NCBI GenBank assembly: GCA_023259175.1 | Contig: JAHFQV010000013.1 | Location: forward strand, 1 to 56,029 | Length of the DNA: 56,029 nucleotides | Origin: Oxalobacteraceae bacterium | GTDB lineage: Bacteria > Pseudomonadota > Gammaproteobacteria > Burkholderiales > Burkholderiaceae_D | Direction: 5' to 3' | In this document: positions 24,331-43,977 of the stretch, piece after piece | Layout: every line of letters starts with the position of its first letter | Numbering within the stretch: the first letter of the stretch is position 1 | The notes under the pieces: model-generated | What the model saw: only the letters and a program-made list of their open reading frames with translations | What the model was told of the DNA's origin: nothing | The model's database searches: none | Made by a program: the position numbers and the translations under genes

Positions 24331-24380
24331 GAGCCCTTATACTCCAATATCGCTTGGAATTTGATGGGCTCTTTTTTTTT
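24331..24380 (+). terminator. Intrinsic terminator between receptor and halogenase genes
   Basis: GAGCCC (24331-24336) pairs with GGGCTC (24366-24371), with an inner CCAA/TTGG stem, followed by nine T. It ends only 17 bases before the halogenase ATG, so read-through from the receptor promoter would be partial, giving more receptor than halogenase transcript. Confidence 0.75.
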
Positions 24381-24397
24381 GCCAGGAAAATCTAGAA

Positions 24398-27195: not shown

Positions 27196-27420
27196 ACCGT
27201 TGGAAAAGAAGTTTCTAGATAAGTTGTGAATCGCTAAAACAAAGAAGCATGCCATAACGAAAATGGCGGCAAAAATCTTGAAAGCGAATCACAGGCAAAT
27301 CGGGCAGCAAAAAACGCATGTAATTGTTTGCCATTTTGTGCGACAAACTATTCAAAATGTGATGCTGTATTCATAGTTTTAGCCTCGCCAAGGGGGGTAT
27401 CTTTATGTGGGCAATCCGAA

Positions 27421-28140
27421 ATGAATGATTTACTTGTATTGAACATGATAGAACAACTGACTCAGGTCAGAAATCAAACCGAGTTTTCAAGTTGGGTCGA
27501 AAATCAATTGCTGTGCGGCTGTTCGGCCAGCAGTGTGTTAATAGGATTCGGAAAAATGCTGTCTGAATATTCGATGACAGCGCATTATGTGAGTCCGGGT
27601 TTTCCAAAATCGCTCATCAAAACATTCGATATCCATGACCCGCATCTGGCCGTGCCTATGTTTGATGAATGGCGTCACCAACGTTCACCAGTGATGGCCA
27701 ATTTGAGCGAAGAAACGAGCCACGACATGCTGTGGCAAACAATGTTTAAGCAAAAGGGATATCGACAAGTCGCCGTTGCGGTGAATATGGATCAAAGAGA
27801 TGGCTCGACCACCTACATGTGTCTGACCGACTTAAAGTGCTACGAAGAAGACATGCCACTCGAGGTATTTCGAAAGCACTTCGCCATCATCGCGCCGATC
27901 TTGCACAGTGTCTTATCTCAGATCGAATATCAAACAAATCTGGAAAAGAAAGACAACAAGATCGCCAAGCTAACTCCACGTGAGAATGAAATTTTGCGTT
28001 GGATAAAGGAGGGAAAAACCAACTTCGAGATTTCCTGCATTCTGGGCATTTCATTTTCAACGATCAAAAATCATGTGCAGAAAATTTTGATTAAATTGGG
28101 TGTCAATAATCGCACTCAAGCGATTGCAAAATACAGCTGA
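27421..28140 (+). CDS. LuxR-type transcriptional regulator, EpsA-like
   Basis: Regulator of about 239 residues. The N-terminal half (about 1-170) is a ligand-type domain resembling EpsA and autoinducer-binding regulators; the C-terminal half has a GerE/LuxR helix-turn-helix (LTPRENEILRWIKEGKTNFE, then GISFSTIKNHVQKILIKLGVNNRTQAIA). I used the ATG at 27421. A short open frame, MWAIRNE, begins at 27405 after AAGGGGGG and ends at 27426-27428, so the regulator start may depend on coupling to it. It is convergent with the lipid cluster at 28.2-46.1 kb and is a candidate regulator of it. Confidence 0.75.
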   Translation: MNDLLVLNMIEQLTQVRNQTEFSSWVENQLLCGCSASSVLIGFGKMLSEYSMTAHYVSPGFPKSLIKTFDIHDPHLAVPMFDEWRHQRSPVMANLSEETSHDMLWQTMFKQKGYRQVAVAVNMDQRDGSTTYMCLTDLKCYEEDMPLEVFRKHFAIIAPILHSVLSQIEYQTNLEKKDNKIAKLTPRENEILRWIKEGKTNFEISCILGISFSTIKNHVQKILIKLGVNNRTQAIAKYS

Positions 28141-28233: not shown

Positions 28234-29106
28234 TCAGCTTCCCTTCAAGCTATGACGTTTTCGATACGCGTCAATCAGCGTTAGAGAATCAATCGCCCAG
28301 GGATGAAAGCGCGGGTTGAAGTATTTCAAAAAAACGCTGAAGGTCTTGCTGAGTACGCCGCCGCGACCAAAAAGGTAGACCGCGAGACGAAGGTAGGTTG
28401 TCGGTCGCCACCACAGCTTATCGCGCCAAAAAGCATACAGCAGGCGCAAAGCGATACCGGGCAACATGACCACTAACAACAAAAAAACCATCCCAATTAC
28501 CAAACTAAGATAGCCACCCGAATAATAGCGAAACACGTCGTAGCAAACCGACTTATGTGCAAGCTCCTCAACCGCATGCCATTCCCATAATTTAAACATC
28601 TCGGCATCACTATCGCGAAACCAAGCCTCCGGTTCACTCAAACCGTACTGTGAAAAAGCGGCAGTCCAATGTTCGACCGCGACAAATAAAGCCAATAAAA
28701 AACGCCGTGGCAAGAAACGTACTATCGCAGAAAATAAATGCCGCTCCCAATCTTCTAATCGTTTAAAAAAAGGATACGCTGGATGCAAGCGATCCTGATT
28801 AAACTGTCCGTGATGGGTGCCGTGAGCACATTCTTGATCACAAAATAGATGCAATTCCCTTTGCAATTTGCTGTCCTCAATTTGTGCAATAAGCGGGCGT
28901 AAGCTGCGAATAGCACAAAACTCAATATTCGGTAGCAGGCTGGACATGGTATTCCAAAAATGGCTGCGCACCGCACTGCCGCCATTCCAAGATTTGACAT
29001 CACAATGGCTAAAATCAAAATCGGGAATGACGAATTCAAAGTGTTCCGGGCTAGTGCTCATGCTCGCTGTTTGCGACGTGCTAAAACTGAGTTCCTTGGT
29101 CTTCAT
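28234..29106 (-). CDS. PF10118-type predicted metal-dependent hydrolase or di-iron protein
   Basis: About 290 residues. Motifs match the PF10118 'predicted metal-dependent hydrolase' family: FCDQECAHGTHHGQFN, VEHWTAAF and WEWHAVEELAHKSVCYDVF. The spaced Glu and His residues on helices suggest a metal site of the ferritin-like kind, though the family is biochemically obscure. Two C-terminal hydrophobic helices (about 195-245) suggest membrane association. I chose the ATG at 29106 because it overlaps the stop of the upstream AlkB-like gene (ATGA); the longer frame from 29184 adds a Ser/Cys-rich piece inside that gene. It is the last gene of the minus-strand operon. Confidence 0.75.
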   Translation of the reverse strand: MKTKELSFSTSQTASMSTSPEHFEFVIPDFDFSHCDVKSWNGGSAVRSHFWNTMSSLLPNIEFCAIRSLRPLIAQIEDSKLQRELHLFCDQECAHGTHHGQFNQDRLHPAYPFFKRLEDWERHLFSAIVRFLPRRFLLALFVAVEHWTAAFSQYGLSEPEAWFRDSDAEMFKLWEWHAVEELAHKSVCYDVFRYYSGGYLSLVIGMVFLLLVVMLPGIALRLLYAFWRDKLWWRPTTYLRLAVYLFGRGGVLSKTFSVFLKYFNPRFHPWAIDSLTLIDAYRKRHSLKGS

Positions 29107-30173
29107 TGCTGCGCTCCATCTCGCGCAACGAGTCCAGCCGCAACTTGAAATTGAAGCAAACGCGGGTGAATTAGAGCACGCCAAAAAGGCGGAAACAGGC
29201 TCAGCAAAAAAAGCAAAGGGTAGCTGATCGGTAAGCGTGGGCTACCCGAAATACAAACAAGTTCGGCGTAACTCTTATGCGGATTGATATGGTGATCGGC
29301 GTGCTTTTGTACGCTTATAAGCACCAGATTACTAAATGGGAGATCGCAATCCCAGGCATGATGTTCGGTAACTCTAGCGAGCTTGCCCTGAGTATCTTCG
29401 CTTCGACGTAAACCGTAATGCCCGATATAATTCATCATCTCCAATACCAAAATCCCGATGCAAGATTGCACGATAAAAAAGCTGAGCGCAAGACCACCAA
29501 ATAAAAATAAAATCAGCAGCGCCCACGCCAAACTGAGTGCATAACCAAAGCTGTTTTCTAGCAGCGCCTTCTTGCGGAAATAGCTATTGCTCTGCGAAGC
29601 ATTTGCACCCCACCAACCGAACAGATTAACCGCAATGGCTTTCGGTAAGTAGGCATATAAAGATTGCCCGTAGCGGGCCGATGTTGGATCCTGTGGTGTA
29701 GCGACCAGCAGGTGATGGCTATGAATATGCGCTAATTTCGCACCGGTGTAACAACTGGTCGAAAAAAGACAAATTCCAAAAAAACGTTCAAAGCGGCTAC
29801 CGTGGTGTATCAATTCATGTGCAGGGTTTTGCGCATACAGTGCCGATAAAATGCCCGCATTAATCACACAAGCGACAAGCTCAATGGCATTGAGCGTATG
29901 GTTCCCCACGTACCATGCGAAGAAAAAAATCGAAAATACTTGTAGCGGCAAGCTTAGGAGAACCACCACCATTTCATTTAAAGAATGACGTGCATCGGCA
30001 TCCTCAAATTTGAGTATGCCGCGACTCCCCAAAAAATCCAAAAAAGGAATACAGCCAAAGATAAAAAACAAATTCGCCCAAACAAATTCAAGACCGCCAC
30101 TCTTTTGAGAAATACCAAAGAAAATGCCGTAGTGAATAATCGCAGGTAAAAAGAAAGCCCAATAGCGCCACAT
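29103..30173 (-). CDS. AlkB-like membrane di-iron fatty-acid desaturase or hydroxylase
   Basis: Integral membrane oxygenase of 356 residues with the histidine boxes of the AlkB alkane-hydroxylase and desaturase family: HELIHHG, HIHSHHLLVATPQDP, NYIGHYG, and KHADHHINPH. About six hydrophobic helices. It should insert oxygen into, or desaturate, an alkyl chain using electrons from a ferredoxin or rubredoxin. No rubredoxin is in the cluster, but a ferredoxin-reductase fusion is encoded at 38501. A paralogue lies at 39621. Coupled to the gene downstream by a four-base overlap. Confidence 0.88.
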   Translation of the reverse strand: MWRYWAFFLPAIIHYGIFFGISQKSGGLEFVWANLFFIFGCIPFLDFLGSRGILKFEDADARHSLNEMVVVLLSLPLQVFSIFFFAWYVGNHTLNAIELVACVINAGILSALYAQNPAHELIHHGSRFERFFGICLFSTSCYTGAKLAHIHSHHLLVATPQDPTSARYGQSLYAYLPKAIAVNLFGWWGANASQSNSYFRKKALLENSFGYALSLAWALLILFLFGGLALSFFIVQSCIGILVLEMMNYIGHYGLRRSEDTQGKLARVTEHHAWDCDLPFSNLVLISVQKHADHHINPHKSYAELVCISGSPRLPISYPLLFLLSLFPPFWRALIHPRLLQFQVAAGLVARDGAQQ

Positions 30174-30183
30174 AGCGAACCCC

Positions 30184-31131
30184 TTACAAGCCTATGCGTA
30201 GCAAACGCGTACTATGCTCTTCCTGAATTTGAGAAAGCAAAATGTGTACTTGTTCGGTTTCCGACACGTCGCGCATTTTGCGGCCAGCAAAAATATCGAT
30301 GTCGCCGATCACGTCCATGTACTGGTCCGCCACCAATTGATATAAATGGATGTAGTGTCGGATCGAGGACTCGAATACACTGCTCATCAAGCCATGGAAA
30401 TCATGGGCTAGCTTTTGCATGCGATTGCGGGTGTCGTCACCGAGTTTGGTATAGCGCTGAATGATCGCCTCCCCATAGCGCACATGATGCACTTCATCGG
30501 CAAAGGCGCCACGAATGAGTTGCGTTAAACTAGGATCAAACACCGACCAGTAGGCCGCTTCATAGCGATAAATCGGATAGGCCATTCCTTCCAAGACGAT
30601 ATTGTGCGCCATCATGGCGGCGGCAAAGTCGCCACGATCAACTTGTTCCTCAATGAGATGGTAGAAGGCACGTAATTCTTTGGTGGTCATGTCTTCCATC
30701 ATTTGATCGCGGTCTTCGGGTGATACGCCAAATTGGGCAAGACGCTCGGAAAATACTTCGTAGTGACGGGCTTCATCGACCGCTTGGGTCGCTAAAAAAA
30801 TCTGTGATGCTTCGTCGGGCGCATGCTGAATTAATTTCGCAATACCTTTATACGACACCCGTTCTGCCGTGAGAAAAGTGGCGATATCGAGCTTGTAAAT
30901 TTGATTGACTAATTTGTCGTCCAATACTGCAAAATGGGTGGGCGCGATTTCGCGACCTATACCATACTCCGTATCTTTCAAAGTACGCCAAGCGGCTCTG
31001 CCCAACCAATGTTGTACGTCGAAGCGATCTGGGTTCCAGTCATCGGCCACGAACTTATTCTGTTTGGCGGGGGCAGGTGTTGCCACGGCAGGGGGGGGCG
31101 ATGGCAGATCTAAAATGAGTGCGTCGTTCAT
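30184..31131 (-). CDS. Ferritin-like di-iron protein (R2/AurF-like oxygenase)
   Basis: Soluble four-helix-bundle protein of 315 residues. The carboxylate and histidine ligands for a di-iron site are visible: a first-helix Glu (FLTAERVSYKG), DEARHYEVFSERL, a third-helix Glu (HNIVLEGMAYPI) and FADEVHHVRYGEA. This pattern is shared by ribonucleotide-reductase R2-like oxidases, AurF-type N-oxygenases and related oxygenases. The N-terminus is Pro/Ala-rich. Its stop lies 10 bases upstream of the AlkB-like gene, and its start overlaps the permease stop. N-oxidation of an amine would fit the cluster but is speculation. Confidence 0.75.
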   Translation of the reverse strand: MNDALILDLPSPPPAVATPAPAKQNKFVADDWNPDRFDVQHWLGRAAWRTLKDTEYGIGREIAPTHFAVLDDKLVNQIYKLDIATFLTAERVSYKGIAKLIQHAPDEASQIFLATQAVDEARHYEVFSERLAQFGVSPEDRDQMMEDMTTKELRAFYHLIEEQVDRGDFAAAMMAHNIVLEGMAYPIYRYEAAYWSVFDPSLTQLIRGAFADEVHHVRYGEAIIQRYTKLGDDTRNRMQKLAHDFHGLMSSVFESSIRHYIHLYQLVADQYMDVIGDIDIFAGRKMRDVSETEQVHILLSQIQEEHSTRLLRIGL

Positions 31132-32456
31132 GCTCGATGTCCTTGGGTTTTGTTGTTCTTGAAGCGAAATAGAAAGAAATTAGTCACGACCAGCGCGCAG
31201 ACTTCACCAATCAATATGCCACGCATGACTTGATTTTCTGGCGAAAAAAACACGCCGCCTGCGATGATGAGTAAAAAAATGGCGGTGCAAAAAACCAAGA
31301 TGGGATGCATTGCATGACGCACCCCTCTGTGGTCTTTGCGCCGCCTGAAAACTAACCACGCAAGCAAAACACAGGCATAGATCAGCGCCAAATGGAAACT
31401 CAGCAATTGGCTAAGGCTGCTATTGAATGTTTCAAAGCTCATCAGGGGAGCGATGATAAGTACGCATGCCGATATAAAGAGCATCGCGTTTCTGGGGCTT
31501 AAGCGCTCGCCATGCAAACGCGCAAACCAAGCCGGAATTTCAGCCTCGCGTCCAAGGCTATAGAGTATCCGTGCAGCGCCAGAAAGACCTACGTTAAATG
31601 AACTTAATACCGCCAAAAGACTAATGATGACCACCAAGCCTTTGGCCAAGTTGGAATTTAAAACGCGCGCTAATTCCAAATGCGGTAGTGCAAAGTGGGC
31701 CAGTGCGCCAGTGGCAAAACGTGCCTCGAGCGCCATCGCAAATTGGGCGTAAATGCCCGCAATGACCACAACGGCCAGCATCAGTGCTATCGGCAAATTA
31801 CGTTGAAAAGATTCATGCCGCGTCACATGCAAGACCGCCCACTCGATGCCGATAAACAGAAACAGTGCGCGCGGAACGGCATTGAGAAAATCAATATCAT
31901 TTGCCGAGTTTGCTGCTGAGGCTGCTGTCGAGAGTGTCGACATTGTCGGTATTAGACTTGCTCCGTTTTGCGCCCAAATAGACAGCCAGCACATCATCAA
32001 CACCACACCCACCGTCATGAGAATTTGCAATTGCAAAGATAATTCATAACCTCTCAAATTGACGAACAATACAAAGCCTAACAAGATGAGCAGGGCGAAT
32101 CCAGCCAAGACGGGTGAAAATAGGCTCACCAACAGTAAATGGCACAAATAAATTTCCAAGCCGCCGATGAGTAGCACCATCAATACGTAGAACAAAGTCG
32201 CGGCAACGGAGAACCGATTTCCGAACGCATATTTGCTAAATGCGCGGATACCGATTGCACCGGGAAATTTGGACGAAAGTTCGGAGAAGCACAAAACCAC
32301 AACGGCCATACATAAGCCAGCAGCGATCAGTGACAGTAGAAGAGTGCTACCCCGCACAAAAGGAAACAAGGAAACCAAAATCGTGTTGCAACTGATGGTG
32401 ATCGCCATCCCAATTGCAATCGCCGATAGCTTCAAAATTTCCGACGCAGATTTCAT
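31128..32456 (-). CDS. APC-superfamily amino-acid permease
   Basis: Inner-membrane transporter of 442 residues with about 12 hydrophobic helices. The opening helix with Gly-rich unwound segment (ISCNTILVSLFPFVRGSTLL) and the SSFNVGLSGAARILYSLGREAEIPAWFARLH segment fit the APC amino-acid/polyamine family. It is the only small-molecule importer in the cluster and may bring in an amino acid or amine used as donor or building block. One base separates it from the SCP2-like gene and it overlaps the next gene by four bases. Confidence 0.82.
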   Translation of the reverse strand: MKSASEILKLSAIAIGMAITISCNTILVSLFPFVRGSTLLLSLIAAGLCMAVVVLCFSELSSKFPGAIGIRAFSKYAFGNRFSVAATLFYVLMVLLIGGLEIYLCHLLLVSLFSPVLAGFALLILLGFVLFVNLRGYELSLQLQILMTVGVVLMMCWLSIWAQNGASLIPTMSTLSTAASAANSANDIDFLNAVPRALFLFIGIEWAVLHVTRHESFQRNLPIALMLAVVVIAGIYAQFAMALEARFATGALAHFALPHLELARVLNSNLAKGLVVIISLLAVLSSFNVGLSGAARILYSLGREAEIPAWFARLHGERLSPRNAMLFISACVLIIAPLMSFETFNSSLSQLLSFHLALIYACVLLAWLVFRRRKDHRGVRHAMHPILVFCTAIFLLIIAGGVFFSPENQVMRGILIGEVCALVVTNFFLFRFKNNKTQGHRA

Positions 32457-32852: not shown

Positions 32853-33620
32853 CTAATGCGGCGATTTCGCAGATTTATCTGTTTTTGCTTCGACCTCAAT
32901 ACTGGATCGCCAAATCGCAGAAGCTTCTTCTATCCAATCGCTATCGTCTTGGTAGTAAAGTCTAGCTGCGCATAGGCGCTCGTCCTGATTATCTAAACCA
33001 GCAGTCGATGGGCTGGGCGCGCGGGGCGCTTGATGAACCGGACCGCCGCTGCGAAATAGCACATCCAAGATTAAGGCAGGCGGTGAAATGGTGTACCAAC
33101 GGCGCTCGTTCCAGTGATGATGCCCCATGTGCTGGTTCCGTACATAACGCATGATGGGACCCGGTTCATACGGTGAGTGCACCACCAAATGCCACCATTC
33201 GAACATTAGGTAGCCCAAGATCAAGCCAGTAGAAAGTGCCGCCGTGCGCGCTGCGTTTTGGGTAAGCAAAGCGTAAATCACGATGTTTAAAAAAAGCGCG
33301 GGCAGTGTGTACCACATCGGCGTAAACAATAAATCTAAGCGACGTGGTTTATCGTGATGACCCAAGTGCAAACGATACAACAAACGATACAGGGTTTTAT
33401 GTTTGGGCATCACACCGTGAAACACCCAAACATGGCTAAAGTATTCCTGCGGCAGATAGAGCAACCAGCCACAGGACAATAGGAGTAGCGCGTCCATCGG
33501 CTTGAGTTGGGTAAATGAGAACCCCATTCCAGCTAGGCAGATCAAACCGTAAAAAATGACGCTATGCTCGGTGAAATACGCCTGACGCAATTGGCTCAAC
33601 ATGGGCACACTACGGTTCAT
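32853..33620 (-). CDS. Sterol desaturase/fatty-acid hydroxylase superfamily membrane protein
   Basis: Membrane di-iron enzyme of 255 residues with His boxes HVWVFH, LHLGHHDKPRR, HLVVHSPYEPG and NQHMGHHHWNERR, and four or so membrane helices. The last box, with WYTIS, is typical of fatty-acid-hydroxylase-type proteins that act on long chains. It overlaps the aminotransferase-reductase fusion gene by four bases (ATGA), so both are made together. Substrate inferred to be a fatty chain. Confidence 0.82.
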   Translation of the reverse strand: MNRSVPMLSQLRQAYFTEHSVIFYGLICLAGMGFSFTQLKPMDALLLLSCGWLLYLPQEYFSHVWVFHGVMPKHKTLYRLLYRLHLGHHDKPRRLDLLFTPMWYTLPALFLNIVIYALLTQNAARTAALSTGLILGYLMFEWWHLVVHSPYEPGPIMRYVRNQHMGHHHWNERRWYTISPPALILDVLFRSGGPVHQAPRAPSPSTAGLDNQDERLCAARLYYQDDSDWIEEASAIWRSSIEVEAKTDKSAKSPH

Positions 33621-36307
33621 AGTTTCACTCCCGCCACATGTCTTTCCGAATTGTTTAAGTTCGTTAGATCGATTTCACTTTCCGTGGTCGCGATGCAGTC
33701 TGCAAAGCCGTGTGATAAAGCGAGACGATAAATGCGTTGCGCTTGTTCGTAAGGGATACGGTTGCCTAGGCTGTGTGACTGTTTCGCGCCGCTCATGGCT
33801 AGGGTGATGGTTTCAGACAAACAGGCCAGATTGAGCGTTTGATCGAAGCCTAGAATATTGGCGCGTCCAAACAAATAGGGTTCGACGAATTTTACGACGC
33901 CCCCTTCGAATACCAAAACGTCGGGGCGTTCGCTGCCTACGCTGCATTTGAGATCGGGCGGACGCGCAGCATCGCAAACCACGGACATTTCTTTTAACCA
34001 GGCCGGCTCGATAAAGCTCTTACCTTGGCTGGTTGCGGACAGTACGCCGTGTGCGCTGCGTATCACTTCTTCGATGTTAACCGAGATACGCACCGGTGGC
34101 GTGCCGGACAAACAAGCTTCGACTACGTCTTTAATTTCGCGATAATCGGGTTCGCGGTCGCGCAGTAAAATTTGATTACAAGTGCTGACCACGGCTAGAG
34201 GCGAATTGAGGTGGGTGCGCAAAAATTGGGCGAGACCGTTGCTGCTGCCTCTTTGCATTTGTAAGAGCGCCTGCGCATAAATTTCACCCGCGATTGAAGC
34301 TAAGGTATCTAAGGCCTGCGCGTTATTGGCATTACCCACCAAACTTAAATGGGCATAGTGATCGGCCAAATGAATGGCGGCAAGTCGTCCTACCGAACCC
34401 GCCGCACCGATCACCGCGACGTGGGTGTCAGGATGTCTTTGACCCGTCGCTAACAGTGCTTTATGCAGGCTTTCAGCACTGGCAATGGCGGTGAAGCTGT
34501 TACCGGTGGTAATTGGAATGCCCTCGTCTGCGATGTCCATGCCACCACGAGAAATGATGGAGGTAAACGCACCTAAACCAACGATGTCAGCACCTAAGGA
34601 TTTCGCGCATTCTATGTATTGTTGCAGCAAGCGTTGCCGATTGACTTTACTCAGGCGCATCATTTTTTCAGGTGGCAAGGGGCAAGCGATTAGCCATCCT
34701 TCTACATAGCCACCCAAAGCCGATTGTATTTTCGCCGCATGAAACACTGGCGCAGGCTCATAGCGTTTCGAGAACCAGCTTTGCATCCATGCTTGAAATT
34801 CACTTTTATGTGGCTCAACGAGCGCCAAAATTGAGCGCGGCATGATGTTGAGTAAATCTTCGTCAGAGGTGGGATGAATTAGAAAGGCAAAGCTGCCTAA
34901 TTTTTCCTGGGTCGGATGACTGAGATTTTTACTTTGCGTAACCAGACTAACCTCAGACAATTTTTTGCTGGCATAATCGAGTTCGCTAGGGTCACGCTTG
35001 ATCAAGTAGGAAAATAGCGCGGAGAACTGTTTGCAGCGTATCAGGGAAGCGCATTCTTCGAGTGCATTGATTAAATGATCGATGTGTTCTTTTTCGATGA
35101 TGAGCGGTGGTTCTATGCGGAGTAAATCCTGGCGATTAAAAAGCGGTGCAACGATGACTTTCGATACATTCACCAAGAAGCCGCAGATCAATGGCACGAT
35201 GTAGCCTTGCACGCTGGCATGGGCTAGGAAATAGCTTTCAGCACCAGAAAAAGCTTTGATACGCAGACTATGCATCAGCCCTAAACCCTGATGCTGCGCG
35301 AAGACATCGGGATATTTTTCGACCAATGCATCTAAGCGATGACCGAGATAAGGGCCGATTTCACGCACATGCTTGAGCAAGGCATGATCATTTTCTTTCA
35401 GCTTCTTAATGGTTGCCAAAGCAGCGCGGCTGGCTAATTGGTTGTTTGCGAAAGTCGAACTATGGTAGTAGCCGAATTCCTCAGTCCAAGCTTTACGGGT
35501 ACAAAGCGTGGCACCAATCGGCATTAAACCGCCGCCCAATGCTTTGGCTAGACAGAGAATATCGGGCTTTACGTTGGCAAAACGTTTGATTGAAAAGAAC
35601 TCACCGAGTCGTCCAATACCCGTTTGAATTTCATCGACGATTAACATTGCACCGTGGTGTTGGCATAGTTCCGCAATCCGTTGCACATAGGCGACGCTCA
35701 AGGGCTGCATACCGCCTTCACCCAAAACCGTTTCCAGAATGAAGCCTGCAATTTCTCGCTCTTTAAATGCTGCCTCTAGCGCGCCGAAATCTTCCGGTTC
35801 GACTTTGATACTGTCCTCGGTATTGATGAGGAAGGGCTCGCTATACACGGGATTGCCGGTCACAGCCAGCGCGCCAGAAGTTTTACCGTGAAAGCCCAAT
35901 TGCAAACTGATGATAGTGCTGCGACCGGTCGCCGCTTTCGCCATTTTCAATGCAGCCTCGACCGCTTCCGCGCCACTATTACTTAACACTGCGTGGGCGA
36001 ATTGGTATTCTGGTTCAAGCTCGACTAAGACTTTCGCCAGATCAATCGCACCGCGTGTGTAAAACGGCTGCACCATGGAAGGTTCACCATCGCAATCGAT
36101 GATGGCTTGACGTATTTCTTTAGGATCGTGGCCGAAGGGTACCGCACCATATTGCGCAAGAAAATCGAGATACGGTGTCGATTGCTCATCATACAAATAG
36201 ACACCATCACCTTTGATCATGGTTTTGTCGAATTGTATGTGCTTGAGTAAGAAGGCACGCTCTGGATTGAGGTGACAGCGTAATGGGGATTTCATAGAGG
36301 CACTCAT
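33617..36307 (-). CDS. Fusion of class III PLP aminotransferase and acyl-ACP-reductase-like domain
   Basis: An 896-residue two-domain enzyme and the likely core of the cluster. Residues about 1-430 are a class III (omega/acetylornithine type) aminotransferase: SNSGAEAVEAALK, LIVDEIQTGIGR, and the PLP lysine (about 255) in CLAKALGGGLMPIGA. Residues about 470-885 resemble cyanobacterial acyl-ACP reductase (AAR): GLGAFTSI, TGNSFTAI, Rossmann VAVIGAAGSVG (about 630-640), FEGGVVKF and LNLACLSETITLAM, whose Cys (about 829) aligns with the AAR acylation cysteine. Inferred reaction: acyl thioester to aldehyde to amine in one protein. Start at 36307 overlaps the upstream stop (ATGA). The AAR half is judged from motifs only. 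Confidence 0.85.
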   Translation of the reverse strand: MSASMKSPLRCHLNPERAFLLKHIQFDKTMIKGDGVYLYDEQSTPYLDFLAQYGAVPFGHDPKEIRQAIIDCDGEPSMVQPFYTRGAIDLAKVLVELEPEYQFAHAVLSNSGAEAVEAALKMAKAATGRSTIISLQLGFHGKTSGALAVTGNPVYSEPFLINTEDSIKVEPEDFGALEAAFKEREIAGFILETVLGEGGMQPLSVAYVQRIAELCQHHGAMLIVDEIQTGIGRLGEFFSIKRFANVKPDILCLAKALGGGLMPIGATLCTRKAWTEEFGYYHSSTFANNQLASRAALATIKKLKENDHALLKHVREIGPYLGHRLDALVEKYPDVFAQHQGLGLMHSLRIKAFSGAESYFLAHASVQGYIVPLICGFLVNVSKVIVAPLFNRQDLLRIEPPLIIEKEHIDHLINALEECASLIRCKQFSALFSYLIKRDPSELDYASKKLSEVSLVTQSKNLSHPTQEKLGSFAFLIHPTSDEDLLNIMPRSILALVEPHKSEFQAWMQSWFSKRYEPAPVFHAAKIQSALGGYVEGWLIACPLPPEKMMRLSKVNRQRLLQQYIECAKSLGADIVGLGAFTSIISRGGMDIADEGIPITTGNSFTAIASAESLHKALLATGQRHPDTHVAVIGAAGSVGRLAAIHLADHYAHLSLVGNANNAQALDTLASIAGEIYAQALLQMQRGSSNGLAQFLRTHLNSPLAVVSTCNQILLRDREPDYREIKDVVEACLSGTPPVRISVNIEEVIRSAHGVLSATSQGKSFIEPAWLKEMSVVCDAARPPDLKCSVGSERPDVLVFEGGVVKFVEPYLFGRANILGFDQTLNLACLSETITLAMSGAKQSHSLGNRIPYEQAQRIYRLALSHGFADCIATTESEIDLTNLNNSERHVAGVKL

Positions 36308-36747: not shown

Positions 36748-37905
36748 TTAAATACCGCACATGTAAGCATCTATCGGTTTGATCACAATTTCGTCGGCAT
36801 GGTGGCCGCATAAACAGCCCGGCGCCTTGTCAATTTCTAGCAAGGAGACGTCGTTATTGAGGGCATCAAAGCGCAACATCTTGCCGACCAAATTGCTGCC
36901 GATATTGAGTAAAAGTTTGATCGCTTCCACCGCCTGCAAGACACCGATAATGCCCGGCAAAACACCGAGTACACCGGCTTCTGCACAGGAAGGTGCCATT
37001 TCGGGTGGCGGTAACTCGGGGTAAATGCAACGATAGCAGGGCGCATCGGCAGCACCACCGAAGCTGGTGACGTAACCTTCAAAGCGATACACCGCAGCGT
37101 GGACATTGCGAATGCCGAGCTTGACGCAGGCATCGTTGATTAAATAGCGGGTTTTGAAATTGTCCGAACCGTCGAGTACCAGATCATAATTTTTCAAAAT
37201 ATCGAGTGCATTGGTCTCATCTAAAAAGTGCGGATGCACTTCAACTTTGACCATAGAATTGAGACGCTTAATCGAAGCGGCGGCGGAATTGACTTTGAGT
37301 TCACCTAATTGATCTTCGCCGTGAATGATCTGCCTTTGTAAATTGCTGCTTTCGACCACGTCTGCATCGACGATGCCGAGAGTACCGACACCCGCAGCGG
37401 CCAAATACAGTGCCGCTGGCGAACCTAAGCCGCCAACGCCAATCAGTAACACGCGACTTTTCATCAAGCGCAATTGACCCGCTTCGCCCACTTCCGGTAC
37501 CAGTAAATGACGAGCGTAGCGTTCTTTCGCCGCGCTATTGAGTTGTTGTGGGATTTTGATTTCGAGTGCGCTTTCTTTCCAGTTTTTGTAGCCACCGCGC
37601 ACGCTATACACTTTTTCGTAGCCCAGATTTTTCAGGCTTTCCGCCGCAAATAAGGAACGCAAGCCGCCCGCACACATGACGGCGATGGGGCGGGTTTTAT
37701 CGTCGATTAATTGATGTACTTTCAGTTCGAGCTGGCCTCGTGCCAAGTGTTTGGCAGCCGTCGGTGTGCCGTCTTTGAGTTCATCGGCATCACGTACATC
37801 GAGCAAAATGGCATCCTCATCCATCACCATTTGCAAGGCTTGAATCGGCGAGATTTCTTTTAATGTTTCGCGTAAATAGGCGGCGCGGCCTTCATATCCA
37901 CTCAT
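36748..37905 (-). CDS. Rhodanese-ThiF/MoeB fusion: E1-like activator of a ThiS-type carrier
   Basis: A 385-residue enzyme with a rhodanese domain first (about 1-115; active-site Cys about 78 in VMCAGGLRS) and an E1-like adenylyltransferase domain second (about 120-385): RHLLVPEVGEAGQ, GVGGLGSPAALYLAAAGVG, SNLQRQ, DGSDNFKTRYLIND, and zinc cysteines CYRC and CLCG. In MoeZ/MOCS3-type proteins the rhodanese usually comes last, so this order is reversed. It should adenylate the C-terminal Gly of the ThiS-like protein encoded immediately upstream and load sulfur on it. Start at 37905 has GGGGG before it; the frame extends to 37920. Confidence 0.85.
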   Translation of the reverse strand: MSGYEGRAAYLRETLKEISPIQALQMVMDEDAILLDVRDADELKDGTPTAAKHLARGQLELKVHQLIDDKTRPIAVMCAGGLRSLFAAESLKNLGYEKVYSVRGGYKNWKESALEIKIPQQLNSAAKERYARHLLVPEVGEAGQLRLMKSRVLLIGVGGLGSPAALYLAAAGVGTLGIVDADVVESSNLQRQIIHGEDQLGELKVNSAAASIKRLNSMVKVEVHPHFLDETNALDILKNYDLVLDGSDNFKTRYLINDACVKLGIRNVHAAVYRFEGYVTSFGGAADAPCYRCIYPELPPPEMAPSCAEAGVLGVLPGIIGVLQAVEAIKLLLNIGSNLVGKMLRFDALNNDVSLLEIDKAPGCLCGHHADEIVIKPIDAYMCGI

Positions 37906-37906
37906 C

Positions 37907-38188
37907 TTAACCCCCGGCAAAAGCGGTCATGATTTCTAAGCGCGACTGCTCAGAAACCGGGCTATGAACACCACCCGTTTGACGGATATGTTTGCCGTCG
38001 AGGTAAATGTTGATGTAACGCTTGGGCTCGCTGTGGTCGGCTTCGAGTAAGCGTTCAGACATTTGCGGATCGAGCGTATTGAGCTGCAACAAGGCATCAA
38101 GCACGGTATCTGCCTGGAAGGAAACCTGGGCCACGCCACGGGCGAATTTGCGCAGTGGGACTGGTAGATTGACATGTACGGTCGTCAT
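37907..38188 (-). CDS. ThiS/MoaD-family ubiquitin-like sulfur carrier
   Basis: A 93-residue beta-grasp protein ending in the required Gly-Gly (MTAFAGG). This end is adenylated by an E1-like enzyme and turned into a thiocarboxylate that delivers sulfur. Visible: the N-terminal strand VHVNLPVPLRKF, the central helix (TVLDALLQLNTLDPQMSERL), RYINIYLDGKHI and SRLEIMTAFAGG. The ATG at 38188 has GGAG six bases upstream; the frame extends to 38200 without a ribosome site. It is the first gene of the minus-strand operon, one base from its partner rhodanese-ThiF gene. Confidence 0.87.
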   Translation of the reverse strand: MTTVHVNLPVPLRKFARGVAQVSFQADTVLDALLQLNTLDPQMSERLLEADHSEPKRYINIYLDGKHIRQTGGVHSPVSEQSRLEIMTAFAGG

Positions 38189-38500
38189 AGTTTGCTCCAT
38201 TTAAGCTGAAAATAAACCGGAAATTCGCTGAGAAAATACTTCCCCGTGATTAAGGTCCTAGGCGGGGGGGGCTGGCCTTGTTATCGAAAAATGTCGCAAC
38301 AAGGCTTACGGGTTTGGATTATCAATCAAGCATTCAGAAGACGAAATAGTGCGAATGACCATTGCCGTTGAACCGGGGCTTTCGGCATGAGCCGTTCGGC
38401 TTATTGAGTTGCCTCTTCACTAAAGCTAATCTTCCGCCATTCCTATCGCAGCTTTTTCTGCTGTTTCTAATGTTGGATGACTTTGGCGTTTGGAGATTTG
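38189..38500. promoter_or_regulatory. Divergent promoter region of the lipid cluster with an 8 bp inverted repeat
   Basis: This 312 bp gap separates the two operons and must hold both promoters. It contains a perfect inverted repeat, GCCTTGTT and AACAAGGC (38275-38305, 15-base spacer), which could be a regulator site, and a hairpin AGCC-gttc-GGCT near 38390. I see no clear -35/-10 pair. Confidence 0.45.
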
Positions 38501-39613
38501 ATGTTCGGTCTGTTTACCAAAAAACCTAAACCCGCCACGCTCTTGACGGTGCGCATGACGCATGCTGAGCAGGCACTGCAAATCAAACGCGGTGCGACCT
38601 TGCTTGATGCGGTGTTGCAGCAGGGTGTGATGGTGCCGTTTAATTGTCGCGTCGGTGCTTGTAAAACCTGTCAAATTCGGGTGCTGGAGGGGCAGCCGAA
38701 ATCCCTGATTGAGCGCGAATATGTGTTTGGAGTTGAGGAAATAAAACAGAATTATTACCTCGCTTGCCAGACCCGTGTGGAGACCGACATGCTCATTGAG
38801 TGGCACACCATGTCCACCAATAGCACAACACAAAAATTGCCTGCACAGTTGTATTCGATAGAGGCTAAAACGGCGCGTATTTTTCGCATTTCGCTGCGAC
38901 TGAGCCAGGCTGCAACTTGGCGTGCAGGGCAGTTTGCGAAGTTGCTACCGGCGGGGTTTGCGATAGAGCCGCGCTGCTACTCCATGGTGAATGAAGCGCA
39001 GCAGGGCGACTTGATGAGTTTCGACATTACCTACTATCCCGGGGCTGCGGTTTCTACCTGGTTGGTTGATACCAAAAATCTCGGTAAGACGATACAGATC
39101 GAAGCACCTTTTGGTGATTTTGGTCAGCAAATTTACGACCCGATTCGACAAGAAACGCCCTTGTTATGTATCGCTGGCGGCAGCGGTTTGGGATCAATTA
39201 GCGGCATCATACGACAAGCTTTGCAGGCAAAAAATTCTCCGCAACGTCCGATTGTCTTGGTGGTCGGTGCGCGTGAGCAAAGTGAGCTCTACGAAATTGC
39301 CGAATTGCGTGCGATGGCGGCCGAGGCGCATTCTGCCCTACATCTAGAAGTGGTTTTGGATCGTGAGCCTAACGAAAGTAACTGGCGCGGTCGTCGTGGC
39401 TACATCGCCGAACACTTGTCGGATATTTTGCAAGAACTGAAGCAAAACCATGCGCGTTTTGTAGGCGATACGCAAAGTTGGCAAGCCTTGTTATGTGGGC
39501 CGCCACCTTTGGTCGATAGTGCGCTTCATTGTTTGCAAGAAATGGGAATGCCGCGCGCGCAAATTGGCTTTGATAAGTACGAGCAAAGCGTCACGAACTT
39601 GGTCTCCAACTAA
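38501..39613 (+). CDS. Ferredoxin-flavodoxin-type oxidoreductase (2Fe-2S ferredoxin plus FAD/NAD(P) reductase)
   Basis: Single-polypeptide electron donor of 370 residues. The N-terminal 2Fe-2S domain has plant-type cysteines (FNCRVGACKTCQIRVLEG, then LACQT). Next come an FAD domain (CYSMVNEAQ) and an NAD(P) domain (CIAGGSGLGSISGI, LLCGPPPLVDS). This arrangement moves electrons from NAD(P)H to oxygenases and probably serves the AlkB-like and ferritin-like enzymes of the cluster. The ATG at 38501 has GGAGA five bases upstream; an earlier frame from 38477 has none. Eight bases separate it from the AlkB-like gene that follows. Confidence 0.87.
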   Translation: MFGLFTKKPKPATLLTVRMTHAEQALQIKRGATLLDAVLQQGVMVPFNCRVGACKTCQIRVLEGQPKSLIEREYVFGVEEIKQNYYLACQTRVETDMLIEWHTMSTNSTTQKLPAQLYSIEAKTARIFRISLRLSQAATWRAGQFAKLLPAGFAIEPRCYSMVNEAQQGDLMSFDITYYPGAAVSTWLVDTKNLGKTIQIEAPFGDFGQQIYDPIRQETPLLCIAGGSGLGSISGIIRQALQAKNSPQRPIVLVVGAREQSELYEIAELRAMAAEAHSALHLEVVLDREPNESNWRGRRGYIAEHLSDILQELKQNHARFVGDTQSWQALLCGPPPLVDSALHCLQEMGMPRAQIGFDKYEQSVTNLVSN

Positions 39614-39620
39614 TCTAGAA

Positions 39621-40826
39621 ATGAGCTCAAATTTCATCGCAAATATGTATAAATATCTCAAACATTCCATCCTCACTTGCATCATCGTGCCTTGTGCGAT
39701 TTTGACGGTATTGCTCGCGCCTCAATGGGCTTTTTTCGTGCCTGTCGTCATTACTTTGGTCAACATGGCGGGCGATAATTTTACGCCACCCGATCGGACT
39801 AATCCCGACTACAGCCAACTTTGGATACTCGATAGTTTCGTTTATCTGTATGTGCCGATTATCAGTTTTTATTTGTTTAGTTTGCTGTGGTTGATAGCCC
39901 CAAATGATTTTCTCGGTTTTTCGGCGGCCATGTCTTCCCTTTTTCCTGTCGATTTATTGGTAATTAAAAAAGCAGCTGGCCTGCGCGGCATGGTTTCCGG
40001 CGCGTTTGCGGTGGGCTATGTGCTCTCTTCAAATCATTTGTATGCCCATGAATTAGTTCATAGAACCACCGACAAAATCGCCATGCTGACCGGGCGCTAT
40101 TTATTGGCGATGACGGGCGATGCCCAGTTTTCGATTTCGCATGTGTATTGTCATCACAAAAATGTGGGTACGCATTTAGATGCTGCGACTGCACGTCGCG
40201 GTGAATCGGTATATCGCTTTTTTATCCGTTCTACACTGGGGCAATACCAAGAGTCTTGGGAAGTTGAAAGTCAACGTTTGCGCAATCGTGAATTGCGGAT
40301 TTGGTCTTGGCATAATCGGGTGTTGACCGGTTTCGCTATGACTTTGGCTTTTTACGCGCTCTGGGCGTATGCGGCGGGATGGTTGGGTGTAGCGATCTAC
40401 ACTGTGGTGATTATCAACGCTAAATTTTTATTTGAAACCATCAATTACATCGAACATTACGGTGTAGTGCGGGTACCTGGCACGCAAGTTTTACCGCGTC
40501 ACAGTTGGGACTGTGACGCACGCATTTCGTCTAATGCATTACTCAATCTTTCGCGGCACGCTGACCATCACGCCAATGCGCAAAAGCGCTATTGGGAGTT
40601 GGAAACCTATGACACCAGTCTGCAACTGCATTACGGCTATATCAGCACCATCGTGGTGGCCATGATTCCGTTCTGGTGGCATCGCTTCGCCGCACCACAG
40701 CTTATCGAATGGGATCGGTATAGCGCAACACCTGCGGAAAAACAACTCGCACAACAAGCCAATCTAGCGAGTGGTCTTCCACTTTTTCTTTCGCCATCTA
40801 AACAAGGGGACATCAAACATGCTTAG
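39621..40826 (+). CDS. AlkB-like membrane di-iron alkane hydroxylase or desaturase (second paralogue)
   Basis: Integral membrane enzyme of 401 residues with the His boxes HELVHR, HVYCHHKNVGTHLDAA, NYIEHYG and SRHADHHANAQKRYWELE, as in AlkB. It is distinct from the paralogue at 29103-30173. Its neighbour is the ferredoxin-reductase, its probable electron donor. The ATG at 39621 is eight bases after the previous stop without a strong ribosome site; an ATG at 39645 is possible. The end overlaps the transporter start by eight bases. Confidence 0.87.
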   Translation: MSSNFIANMYKYLKHSILTCIIVPCAILTVLLAPQWAFFVPVVITLVNMAGDNFTPPDRTNPDYSQLWILDSFVYLYVPIISFYLFSLLWLIAPNDFLGFSAAMSSLFPVDLLVIKKAAGLRGMVSGAFAVGYVLSSNHLYAHELVHRTTDKIAMLTGRYLLAMTGDAQFSISHVYCHHKNVGTHLDAATARRGESVYRFFIRSTLGQYQESWEVESQRLRNRELRIWSWHNRVLTGFAMTLAFYALWAYAAGWLGVAIYTVVIINAKFLFETINYIEHYGVVRVPGTQVLPRHSWDCDARISSNALLNLSRHADHHANAQKRYWELETYDTSLQLHYGYISTIVVAMIPFWWHRFAAPQLIEWDRYSATPAEKQLAQQANLASGLPLFLSPSKQGDIKHA

Positions 40827-43800
40827 CAAATACATAGAAAAAATCATCCGATGGCGCTCGCTCGTCATCGTGATGACGATACTGACCACCTTATTCATGC
40901 TATCGCAAATGCGCAATTTGAAGGTGATCGTCGATCCCAATCAAATGCTGCCGCAAACCCATCCTTATGTGGTGGGTACTAATTTGGCTGAAAAAGTGTT
41001 TGGCTCCAATTATGTGTTGGTGGTCGCTGTGTCACCGAAAAATGGCGACATCTTTCAACCCGCGGTCTTGGAACGTGTGCGTGTCATCTCTGAAGGTTTG
41101 CAAAAGCTGCCGAATGTGAAACCAGAAACCTTGATGAGCATTAGCGCTAAGCGTGCCAAAGGGATTTCAGGCCAAGAAGACAGTCTAGAAGTGAAGCCAC
41201 TCTTGCATGGCGCAAGCATCAATGCCGAGTCAATTGCCAAGCTTAAAACGGCGCTGGAACGTAACCCTATCTACAGCGGGGTTGTCGTTTCCGAAGCCAA
41301 GGATATGGCGGCCATTAGTATCGCGGTCGAAAAGGGCCCTAAGGGCTTTACACCTACCTTAGAGGCGACTTACGAATTGATTAAAGCCAACGCCAGTGAC
41401 GATATCGTGGTGGCCGTGAGTGGCTCGCCTATGTTCGTCTACTACATTGAAAAATTCACCAAGAGAATGGGGATACTATTTCCACTCGCCTTGCTCATCG
41501 TCGGACTACTTCATTTGGAAGCTTTCCGTACATGGCAAGGCTTCTTTTTGCCGCTAGTGACGGCGATTTTGTCGGTGCTGTGGGGGCTAGGCATGATGGG
41601 TATCGCCAAAGTGCCCTTGGATCCATTTAACGTCACCACGCCGATATTAATTTTAGCGGTGACGGCAGGCCATGCAGTGCAATTACTCAAGCGTTTTTAT
41701 GAGGAATTTGAGCTGGCTATTCGCCGTGGCGCTAACCCAAAAGACGCAAATCGCGAAGCCGTGGTGCAGTCGATGTCGAAAGTCGGCCCTGTGATGCTGG
41801 CGGCCGGTCTGGTCGCGGTGATAGGTTTCTTGTCTTTGATGTCCTTTGACATCGTTGCGATTCGCAATTTTGGCATCTTCACGGCGCTTGGCATTTTCTC
41901 TGGCCTGATCGTTGAAATGACTTTCATTCCCGCCGTCCGCTCCTGGATCAAGCCGCCCAAAATGCGTACTACACCCATGCGTTTTGACGTGCTTTCGCCA
42001 GTGATTTCACGGATTAAAGCAGCGGTGCAAATAAGACGTGCGAAACAGGTATTTCTATTTTTTGTCGCGCTCGTCGGCGTCTCTGCGTATGGCGTAACGC
42101 AACTGAAAGTGGAAAATTCGAATAAGAGCTTTTTCGCCAGCAATCTGCCTTTTCAAGCGGACGATCGCCTCATCAATGAGAAAATGGCTGGCACGAATAC
42201 GCTCTATGTCGTCTTTGAAGGTCGCGAGCAAGATGTCATTAAAGATCCGAAGATTTTGCAATTGATGGAGCAAACCCAGCGTTTCTTGGAAACCCAGCCT
42301 GGTATTGGTAAAACTATTTCTGTCGTTGATTTGGTTCGCCGCATGAATCAAGCTATGCATGCCGACCAAGCAAAAGAGCTGAGCATTCCCGACAATCGCG
42401 ATTTGATCTCGCAATATCTTTTGCTTTACTCATTGTCTGGTGAACCCGCTGACTTTGATCGTTACGTTGATTACGGCTATCGCACCGCCAATATTACGGC
42501 CTTTGTAAAGCACGACAACAGTCGTGAAATTCAAAAAGTGATTGCGAACACACGTGAATTTCTCCAAGCGCATAACGACCCGCGCATCAGCATTCATTTC
42601 GGCGGTAGCGTTCCGCAATCGACGGCCTTGTCTGAATCCTTAGTGAACGGAAAATTGCGCAATATTTTGCAGATAGGCGCGGTGATTTTCCTCGTGTCGG
42701 CCTTGGTGTTCCGTTCTATTCTTGCCGCGGTATTGATCGTGACTCCTCTGGCTATTACCGCTGTGGTGAATTTCGGCATGATGGGTTTGACCGGTATTCC
42801 GCTCAATACCCCCAATGCGATTACCGCTCCAATGGCCATCGGTATCGGTGCCGATTACGCGATTTATTTACTCTATCGGATACGTGAAGAGCTCAGAGTT
42901 CACCCAACGTTTGATGGTGCGATTGACGCGGCTTTGGATTCAGCAGGGCGTGCCATTTTGTATGTTGGTACTGCGATTGCCGGTGGTTACTCGGTCTTGA
43001 TGTTATCGCGTGGCGCCAATATCCATATTTGGTCCGGCATATTGATTGATCTATCGATGATCGTGAGTGTTCTGACGACGCTTCTGCTCTTGCCACCTTT
43101 GATCAAATTGATCAAACCACGTTTTTTGCAGGCTGAGGAAGTGTCCGCGAATAAAATGCAAGCAACGGTAGTGTCGAGCTTTGTCTTGGTCTGTGCGGCG
43201 GCATTGGCGATGTCCTTGTTTTCCAGTCGCAATGCGCATGCCGACGGCATTGACGCCGACCGTATCATGGAGCGCAATTTCATCGCTAATCGTTTTGATG
43301 ATTCTAGTTCCAATGCCATTTTTCAGCTCATCAATAAAAATGGCGAGCGTCGTGTGCGAGAAACTTTTGGTGCGACTAAAGCACAGGGAAAAACCCTGGA
43401 CACGAAACGTATGACGCGTTTTATGTCGCCATCGGACATCAAAAATACGGTGACGCTCTTGGTTGAGCATAGTGATGCGGACGACGATATGTGGATTTAT
43501 CTTCCGGCATTGAAAAAGACACGGCGTATTGCGTCTTCTAACAAAAGCGAAAGTTTTGTCGGAACCGATTTGTCCTATGGCGATGTGATTGGTCATAAGG
43601 TCGCCGATTGGAGTCATAAAATTGTGCGCCACGAAAATGTGGCGGGTGCGGATTGCTTCGTTGTTGAATCGCTGCCGAAGAACAAAATCGTGGCCGATAA
43701 TTCGGGTTACGCGAAACGCGTGATGTGGATCGATCCGCAGTCTTTCCTCTCTTTGAAAACCGAGTTTTACGACAATAATCAACAATTGCTCAAGGTGTCT

Positions 43801-43977
43801 ACCCTGAGTCATTTAGTCAACGTGGATGCATCCAAACAGCGTTGGCAGCCGATGAATATGGAAGTGCAAAACGTCCAAACTGGGCATCGCACTTTGATTG
43901 AGTGGAAGGGATTTAAGGCTAATCAAGGTGTGAAGGATGATTATTTCACCCAGCGCTATTTGGAAAAAGAGGAATGA
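40819..43977 (+). CDS. MmpL/RND lipid exporter fused to LolA-like outer-membrane lipoprotein-sorting domain
   Basis: A 1052-residue fusion. Residues about 1-770 form an RND/MMPL permease: an N-terminal helix, a periplasmic domain, and two membrane bundles with GADYAIYLLYR and ILYVGTAIAGGYSVLML. At about 780-810 a second hydrophobic stretch ends in an AHA-like site, then about 810-1052 resembles the LolA-like 'outer membrane lipoprotein-sorting' domain (RFMSPSDIKNTVTLLVEH, DMWIYLPALKKTRRI, SESFVGTDLSYGD). These are usually two neighbouring genes. The fusion puts a lipid-binding domain in the periplasm next to the pump. The ATG at 40819 has AAGGGGA upstream; the longer frame from 40771 lies inside the previous gene. 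Confidence 0.85.
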   Translation: MLSKYIEKIIRWRSLVIVMTILTTLFMLSQMRNLKVIVDPNQMLPQTHPYVVGTNLAEKVFGSNYVLVVAVSPKNGDIFQPAVLERVRVISEGLQKLPNVKPETLMSISAKRAKGISGQEDSLEVKPLLHGASINAESIAKLKTALERNPIYSGVVVSEAKDMAAISIAVEKGPKGFTPTLEATYELIKANASDDIVVAVSGSPMFVYYIEKFTKRMGILFPLALLIVGLLHLEAFRTWQGFFLPLVTAILSVLWGLGMMGIAKVPLDPFNVTTPILILAVTAGHAVQLLKRFYEEFELAIRRGANPKDANREAVVQSMSKVGPVMLAAGLVAVIGFLSLMSFDIVAIRNFGIFTALGIFSGLIVEMTFIPAVRSWIKPPKMRTTPMRFDVLSPVISRIKAAVQIRRAKQVFLFFVALVGVSAYGVTQLKVENSNKSFFASNLPFQADDRLINEKMAGTNTLYVVFEGREQDVIKDPKILQLMEQTQRFLETQPGIGKTISVVDLVRRMNQAMHADQAKELSIPDNRDLISQYLLLYSLSGEPADFDRYVDYGYRTANITAFVKHDNSREIQKVIANTREFLQAHNDPRISIHFGGSVPQSTALSESLVNGKLRNILQIGAVIFLVSALVFRSILAAVLIVTPLAITAVVNFGMMGLTGIPLNTPNAITAPMAIGIGADYAIYLLYRIREELRVHPTFDGAIDAALDSAGRAILYVGTAIAGGYSVLMLSRGANIHIWSGILIDLSMIVSVLTTLLLLPPLIKLIKPRFLQAEEVSANKMQATVVSSFVLVCAAALAMSLFSSRNAHADGIDADRIMERNFIANRFDDSSSNAIFQLINKNGERRVRETFGATKAQGKTLDTKRMTRFMSPSDIKNTVTLLVEHSDADDDMWIYLPALKKTRRIASSNKSESFVGTDLSYGDVIGHKVADWSHKIVRHENVAGADCFVVESLPKNKIVADNSGYAKRVMWIDPQSFLSLKTEFYDNNQQLLKVSTLSHLVNVDASKQRWQPMNMEVQNVQTGHRTLIEWKGFKANQGVKDDYFTQRYLEKEE

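Follow-up and report, generated by a model that had tools for sequence, protein, structure and literature searches.

We analysed a 56,029-nucleotide stretch of DNA (the window; contig JAHFQV010000013.1 of assembly GCA_023259175.1) from an Oxalobacteraceae bacterium, in which one gene of a ten-gene operon encodes an aminotransferase fused to a reductase of the acyl-ACP reductase (AAR; ACP, acyl carrier protein) type. From the domains of this protein and the genes around it, we think it reasonably probable that the fusion is a TamH-type fatty-amine synthase supplying the amine for a nitrogen-oxidised lipid.

The fusion gene and its operon

The fusion is encoded by a single unbroken open reading frame (ORF), the ATG of which shares four bases with the stop codon of the preceding gene; an alternative TTG start at 36337 would give an ORF of 33617-36337 and 906 residues. 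In the numbering of the 896-residue protein, which we use throughout, the motif CLAKALGGG places the lysine that binds pyridoxal phosphate (PLP) at Lys255, the glycine-rich loop GAAGSVG runs from residue 634, and ACLSETI contains Cys829. The first 420 residues match the class III aminotransferase family PF00202 (E 1.4e-74). Full-length orthologues at 68-83% identity are present in four further named genomes, those of Undibacterium flavidum, two Massilia and Trinickia terrae (loci L013-L016, of which L016 is that of Trinickia), so the fusion is a real conserved gene.

The operon consists of ten co-directional minus-strand genes separated by at most 47 bp, several of them overlapping (the start of the PF10118 gene was our choice). 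In order, these encode a ThiS-like protein, a MoeB-rhodanese, a UPF0093-like protein, the fusion, a fatty-acid-hydroxylase-like protein, an SCP2-like protein, an APC permease, a VlmB-like protein, a PF00487 membrane enzyme and a PF10118 protein (Table 1). All ten are kept in 5/5 loci, the window included (two Undibacterium, two Massilia, Trinickia). Of the divergent gene set, all four orthologous loci keep the ferredoxin reductase and another PF00487 enzyme. A tryptophan halogenase and the ORF before it, which we take to encode a TonB-dependent-receptor-like protein, were considered as cluster members and rejected, as neither had a match among the ORFs of the L013-L016 stretches.

Table 1. Features of the fusion locus, in window coordinates. 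L013-L016, orthologous loci; L059, a locus from the same order described in the text.
Feature	Coordinates	Strand	Basis and remarks
Aminotransferase-AAR fusion (TamH-type)	33617..36307	(-)	896 aa from ATG
Class III aminotransferase domain (PF00202)	35051..36220	(-)	PLP Lys255 codon about 35543-35545
AAR-type thioester reductase domain	33638..34891	(-)	GxxGxxG loop 634-640 (codons about 34388-34408); Cys829 (codon about 33821-33823)
ThiS/SAMP-like protein, 97 aa	37907..38200	(-)	PF02597 E 3.3e-6, 28 bits, cut-off 22.5; C-terminal AFAGG
MoeB-type E1-like adenylyltransferase, N-terminal rhodanese	36748..37920	(-)	PRK08762 512 bits, cut-off 449
Small UPF0093-like protein (weak), 146 aa	36304..36744	(-)	PF03653 below cut-off; membrane character by eye
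Fatty-acid-hydroxylase-like protein	32853..33620	(-)	PF04116 30.7 bits (cut-off 31, narrowly missed)
SCP2-like small protein, 115 aa	32458..32805	(-)	No direct Pfam match; via L059 homologue (33% to L059:13544-13912, itself matching PF02036 at E 9e-5)
APC-family amino acid permease	31128..32456	(-)	PF13520 E 6.9e-24; 28% to L059 permease
VlmB-like ferritin-type di-iron protein	30184..31131	(-)	PDB 6d9f
Membrane desaturase/hydroxylase family protein	29103..30173	(-)	PF00487
PF10118 protein, probably ferritin-like	28234..29061	(-)	ATG start chosen by us
LuxR-type regulator	27328..28140	(+)	Opposite strand, past operon 3' end; L013-L015 have it at this position, L016 has just a 39% relative located elsewhere
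Ferredoxin-NAD(P)H reductase (Fer2-FAD-NAD)	38477..39613	(+)	Divergent gene set
Second PF00487 membrane desaturase/hydroxylase	39495..40826	(+)	Divergent gene set
MMPL transporter with LolA-like domain	40771..43977	(+)	Present in L013-L015, not at L016
DUF1302-like protein	43974..45224	(+)	Below cut-off; present in L013-L015, not at L016
Patatin-like protein	45258..46127	(+)	Below cut-off; present in L014-L016; L013 stretch ends before this position
Presumed TonB-dependent-receptor-like ORF, then tryptophan halogenase	21501-25900		Halogenase PF04820 E 3e-190

The reductase half and its described counterparts

The original prediction, made from the sequence, was of a class III aminotransferase joined to an AAR-type reductase, and all six motifs it quoted are present in the translated protein. 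Its reading of the N-terminal half, with the lysine in CLAKALGGG, is confirmed by the PF00202 match. For the C-terminal half no Pfam family scores above cut-off, and the profile support comes instead from NCBIfam, with the AAR model TIGR04058 (E 4.3e-15) and the PigE model NF053554 (E 5.3e-49). Matches in the PDB agree: the reductase half finds PigE (4ppm, E 1e-28) and cyanobacterial AAR (6jzq, E 3.3e-12), the cyanobacterial AAR structures overall matching at E 3e-12 to 1e-10, and with the whole fusion as query 4ppm is matched at E 5e-92, spread over three stretches.

The proposal that Cys829 occupies the AAR acylation position also holds. Its partner in cyanobacterial AAR is the catalytic Cys294 (residue counted manually along the printed alignment). 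When 14 reductase domains are aligned, the cysteine and the first two loop glycines are invariant (14/14), and the third loop glycine varies. A motif script detected the cysteine in 14/17 proteins with the aminotransferase preceding the reductase and in 3/3 PigE-type proteins; it can be seen by eye in L057 and L058 too, and the L056 ORF as read stops short of its position. The predicted logic, from acyl thioester straight to amine, would fit both domain assignments and the conserved active-site residues.

Structure prediction adds little to this. An AlphaFold2 model of the reductase, with five close orthologues as input, is poor (predicted local distance difference test score, pLDDT, 55.5; predicted template-modelling score, pTM, 0.46), and although Foldseek places six AAR chains on top (E 8e-9 to 4e-8), template-modelling scores of about 0.3-0.4 make this fold comparison weak, so that the AAR assignment rests on the sequence matches. 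Among or just behind the AAR chains Foldseek ranks 9e50, 9e4x and 9e4s (‘TAD’, carmabin biosynthetic pathway), one carmabin TAD entry naming a disulfide at Cys2238; by these model-based matches, AAR-like domains may also be present inside assembly lines.

Two fusions of a transaminase with an AAR-type reductase have been published. PtTamH, from tambjamine YP1 biosynthesis in Pseudoalteromonas tunicata, is described as an N-terminal class III PLP transaminase followed by a reductase domain that is classed as AAR on 27-28% identity to cyanobacterial AARs, a GxxGxxG motif and a putative catalytic Cys887; together with TamA it converts dodecanoic acid to dodecylamine (the C12 amine) in vitro, working with NADH and TamA-bound acyl-ACP (PMC9594044). 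PigE, from the prodigiosin pathway, carries the same two domains with the AAR-type cysteine conserved (Cys296), and in cell lysate it converted a thioester (PMC8341465). Both statements of novelty in the original prediction therefore fail: TamH had been said to differ in reductase type, but the reductase half of PtTamH is an AAR homologue; and no fusion of such a kind was thought to have been described, yet PtTamH has the same domain order. The window fusion is a diverged member of this already described TamH-type enzyme class.

The differences are nevertheless considerable. PtTamH, which we compared by its published description rather than by a direct identity figure, has 941 residues and its PLP lysine at position 340, as opposed to 896 residues and Lys255 here. 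It is accompanied by a TamA (ANL-ACP) partner and by pyrrole genes, neither of which was found among the scanned neighbours of the window fusion. Two ACP and two AMP-binding queries, searched by tblastn without a positive control, gave no match to a TamA-like adenylating enzyme or ACP in the window, L013-L016 or L059; having an ANL-ACP partner characterises the tam cluster and not the enzyme class. PigE has the reverse domain order and a branched thioester substrate, whereas the window aminotransferase is N-terminal. Cyanobacterial AAR shares the sequence family, the position of the catalytic Cys294 and the top of the Foldseek list with the window domain, but is a stand-alone enzyme supplying ADO for alkane synthesis.

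Relatives of the fusion and azoxy-type genes

Scanning genome contigs with the full protein returned five loci, the four orthologous ones and L017, where only the aminotransferase matches. The reductase domain alone is matched (E <= 0.001) in 5/98 related genomes, our own counted, of which just one other, G023, is close; its figures against the window equal those of U. flavidum, and it is probably the same genome. A domain profile run over 399 genomes of the order gave 12 matches at E <= 1e-20 (own genome included), not all of them aminotransferase fusions: in L060:8284-10476 (G360) and L061:7984-10161 (G409), the AAR-like domain lies in the C-terminal half of ORFs of 725-730 aa with neither a Pfam nor an aminotransferase match, which represent another kind of AAR protein or ORFs read too long. 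Identity to the window fusion is 35-38% over most of the length for the Rhodobacterales fusions L018, L019 and L023, 32% for L059, and 27-28% for the Undibacterium (G018/G034) and Photobacterium fusions. The clade of five that contains the window fusion has a support of 100/100 in both the aminotransferase tree and the reductase tree. A single pattern match in viral contigs yielded no relative that would link the fusion to phages.

Other fusions occur in quite varied settings. The protein at L021:7458-14041 (Leisingera sp. M658 plasmid) has 1395 residues, with about 500 extra C-terminal residues after the aminotransferase-AAR part, and adjoins LolA-like and MMPL export genes, pabB and an adenylate-forming enzyme. 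At L027:7381-17860 (G034, of the genus Undibacterium), two PPDK_N/PEP-utilizer proteins, a phosphatidylserine decarboxylase and a CDP-alcohol phosphatidyltransferase are encoded next to a TamH-like fusion; this is an amine-lipid cluster of another kind within the window's own genus.

The VlmB-like protein connects the operon to azoxy biosynthesis. Of the solved structures, 6d9f (‘Putative VlmB homolog’) comes closest to it, matching residues 18-314 at E 5.5e-20; against four Streptomyces VlmB proteins its identity is 22-23%, and a Streptomyces VlmB query finds the window at E 1e-19 by tblastn, which speaks for homology only. Six putative metal ligands (E90, E120, H123, E181, E213 and H216) are invariant (9/9). 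VlmB is described as turning a hydrazine into an azoxy group (PMC11705231), and the azodyrecin proposal follows the same logic with a putative dehydrogenase, a transaminase, a VlmB homologue and a desaturase (PMC9379638). The window shares with the azodyrecin and valanimycin clusters, as these are described there, a proposed fatty aldehyde-to-amine step (azodyrecin), a VlmB-family di-iron oxidase and a desaturase. It differs from them in having a fused enzyme in place of a separate dehydrogenase and transaminase, and three components of the azoxy clusters were not found in the window: VlmA, a hydroxylamine aminoacyltransferase; VlmO, a membrane protein that forms the hydrazine; and the flavin N-hydroxylase pair VlmH/VlmR.

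Outside the clade, the closest relative that we found of the VlmB-like protein (47-50%) is at L059:380-15532 (G137, same order), where a fusion sits with VlmA, VlmO, the VlmB-like protein and a FAD-binding monooxygenase-like protein, as well as an APC permease, SCP2, a fatty acid hydroxylase and MMPL, a near-complete azoxy-type set. Its VlmA is 39% identical to Streptomyces VlmA, and its VlmO retains D51, H82, H110 and D114 (numbering of the alignment's first row), the residues named as iron-binding in PMC11705231. At L024:10261-21800 (Paraburkholderia phymatum STM815 plasmid pBPHY01), a fusion lies near VlmO (47%), VlmA (42%) and a VlmH-like gene (36%, E 3e-53), with no VlmB match there; by its gene content this locus looks like an aliphatic azoxy cluster supplied by a fused amine synthase. 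P450-like and GST-like ORFs, labelled by eye, are also present at L024.

A tblastn test at E <= 0.001 covered 22 loci, 17 with the aminotransferase preceding the reductase, 3 of PigE type and 2 without aminotransferase. Among the 17, a VlmB-like gene is present at six (the five of the window clade and L059) and VlmA with VlmO at two (L059 and L024). Weak VlmH-like matches also occur in two PigE-type loci, and similarity to VlmH is by itself not telling. Eleven Streptomyces plasmid records matched; we examined four, and in three of these an APC permease comes directly after VlmB (L064 and L067, both among the three, are near-identical, with VlmO at 99%). An APC permease likewise neighbours the VlmB-like gene of the window operon. 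No ThiS/MoeB pair is annotated in the four Streptomyces loci, in contrast to the window.

This pair appears to be intact. At 5/5 loci the ThiS-like proteins terminate in AFAGG and the E1 and rhodanese active-site motifs of the MoeB-rhodanese are conserved, so that, by sequence motifs, the pair has the C-terminal GG carrier, the E1-like Cys motifs and the rhodanese Cys of a ThiS/MoaD-type sulfur-carrier system. One further ThiF/MoeB homologue (42%) and two further ThiS-family genes occur in the window's genome, which makes the operon pair additional. Among the matches listed in our search of the open-access literature, we found neither the operon nor any ThiS/MoeB pair alongside VlmB described; in those terms the operon is an undescribed variant combining TamH-type amine formation, a VlmB-type oxidase and a sulfur-carrier pair.

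The PF10118 protein has the invariant residues E47, E77xxH80, E130 and H162xxxE166xxH169 and is modelled as a helical bundle (pLDDT 88). Sequence searches gave no PDB relative, and Foldseek of the model returned ribonucleotide reductase subunits and R2-like oxidases first, with a best E of 0.03 and none below 0.001. A seventh histidine of N-oxygenases is named in PMC12154687, and the conserved HxxxExxH pattern makes the protein a candidate AurF-type N-oxygenase. The UPF0093-like protein was considered as a VlmO equivalent, which is unsupported: profile comparison, with very shallow profiles, gave a probability of 0.1%.

A proposed pathway and its alternatives

In the pathway we propose, an acyl thioester would acylate Cys829. 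Because neither an ACP nor an adenylating enzyme turned up in the window, fatty-acid synthesis would probably provide this thioester as acyl-ACP. Its reduction to an aldehyde would follow, with NAD(P)H seated in the GxxGxxG loop. The N-terminal aminotransferase would then receive the aldehyde and, using PLP on Lys255 and an amino-acid donor, convert it into a primary fatty amine. The VlmB-like di-iron enzyme would N-oxidise this amine, with the PF10118 protein as candidate second N-oxygenase, and the PF00487 and PF04116-like membrane enzymes, together with the ferredoxin reductase, would desaturate or hydroxylate the chain. ThiS and MoeB-rhodanese would add sulfur or act as an activation module, oxygen or an acyl group being activated where azoxy pathways use aminoacyl-tRNA and VlmA. 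Where present, the MMPL/LolA system would export the product. Homology and conserved residues carry the acylation, reduction and transamination steps, and the neighbouring genes suggest the later ones.

These steps deserve different degrees of confidence. That the fusion is an amine-forming enzyme seems very likely from its domains and residues, and that the operon product is an N-oxidised lipid is somewhat more plausible than its contrary, while an azoxy bond in particular is doubtful. A bolder version, which we regard as a long shot, is that the ThiS-like carrier activated by MoeB-rhodanese replaces the tRNA-dependent VlmA/VlmO module: its activated C-terminal glycine or thiocarboxylate would capture the N-hydroxylated fatty amine, and the VlmB-like and PF10118 proteins would finish an N-N or N-S lipid. 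If true, a ubiquitin-like protein would serve as carrier in N-heteroatom bond formation.

Several observations weigh against the proposal that a TamH-type synthase here feeds the oxidation of nitrogen. The scores fall well below the equivalog cut-offs of both family models (TIGR04058, 55.9 vs 449.7 bits; PigE NF053554, 466.8 vs 850 bits). The precedents have gaps of their own: C12-CoA yielded no amine with PtTamH (PMC9594044), and purified PigE with NAD(P)H gave no product (PMC8341465). Placement of the fusion beside the VlmA/VlmO-linked L059 is unsure (83/83, on a long branch). At 10/17 loci with the aminotransferase first there is no VlmA, VlmO or VlmB within the stretch read, so a link between the fusion and azoxy genes is not general. 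The VlmB-like profile matches 2/399 genomes of the order at E <= 1e-15, both with a fusion nearby, but it was built from fusion-adjacent genes with both matched genomes included, so that this co-occurrence is no independent draw. Streptomyces or L059 queries for VlmA, VlmO, VlmH, VlmR and the L059 flavoprotein gave no match in the window or L013-L016, to which the search for VlmH and VlmR was confined. In the window's own genome (assembly 95.8% complete) we found no VlmA (PF09924), no match to DUF4260, itself a weak VlmO model that picks up the L059 protein at no better than E 0.005, and, in a search that had no positive control genome, no match to a VlmO profile. With VlmA and VlmO not found, the classical azoxy route is incomplete and the cluster is not of the standard azoxy type; in their stead it carries the ThiS-like protein, MoeB-rhodanese, the UPF0093-like protein and the PF10118 protein.

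The alternative to which we give most weight has the sulfur-carrier pair supply sulfur. The product would be a sulfur-containing N-oxidised lipid: MoeB-rhodanese would load ThiS as a thiocarboxylate, and the sulfur would pass from there to a fatty-amine intermediate already oxidised, for example to the oxime or hydroxylamine level, so as to form a thiohydroxamate-like or similar group. The pair opens the operon at 5/5 loci with its motifs and C-terminal GG intact, and is extra to the other ThiF/MoeB and ThiS-family genes of the genome; however, we recognised no dedicated sulfur-transfer enzyme, and E1-rhodanese proteins are described as also serving tRNA thiolation and molybdenum cofactor synthesis, so that a housekeeping role is possible for this one. 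We hold this alternative as a tentative one, worth keeping in mind.

It is rather unlikely that the fatty amine is itself the end product or becomes a membrane amine lipid, with the di-iron enzymes acting only on C-H bonds of the chain. Several C-H oxidising families do surround the fusion, and the fusion at L027 adjoins phosphatidylserine-decarboxylase and CDP-alcohol transferase genes, but among solved structures the di-iron protein comes closest to a VlmB homologue, and the closest relative that we found for it beyond the clade sits with VlmA and VlmO. We give very little credence to the reverse direction, in which a fatty amine would be deaminated and the aldehyde oxidised to a thioester for amine breakdown: transamination and, in principle, thioester reduction are reversible, yet PtTamH (PMC9594044) and PigE in lysate (PMC8341465) work in the synthetic direction, and the operon content and transporter genes look biosynthetic. 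Finally, a plain TamH/PigE orthologue in a tambjamine or prodiginine pathway, suggested by PigE being the best NCBIfam match and by the TamH-like domain order, can be dismissed as scarcely credible on the NF053554 score and the neighbourhood, in which we matched no TamA-like enzyme or ACP and, among the neighbours scanned with Pfam (not every window ORF), no pyrrole-pathway family, and which looks quite different from true PigE-type loci.

Fusions of an aminotransferase with an AAR-type reductase thus extend beyond the pyrrole antibiotics: in Proteobacteria, two have azoxy-type genes as neighbours, and another five share a conserved cluster with a VlmB-like enzyme and a sulfur-carrier pair. 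They are candidates for the enzymatic production of fatty amines from acyl-ACP. The combination of genes in the operon points to an uncharacterised natural product and offers a place to seek nitrogen-oxidised lipids and N-N or N-S chemistry.

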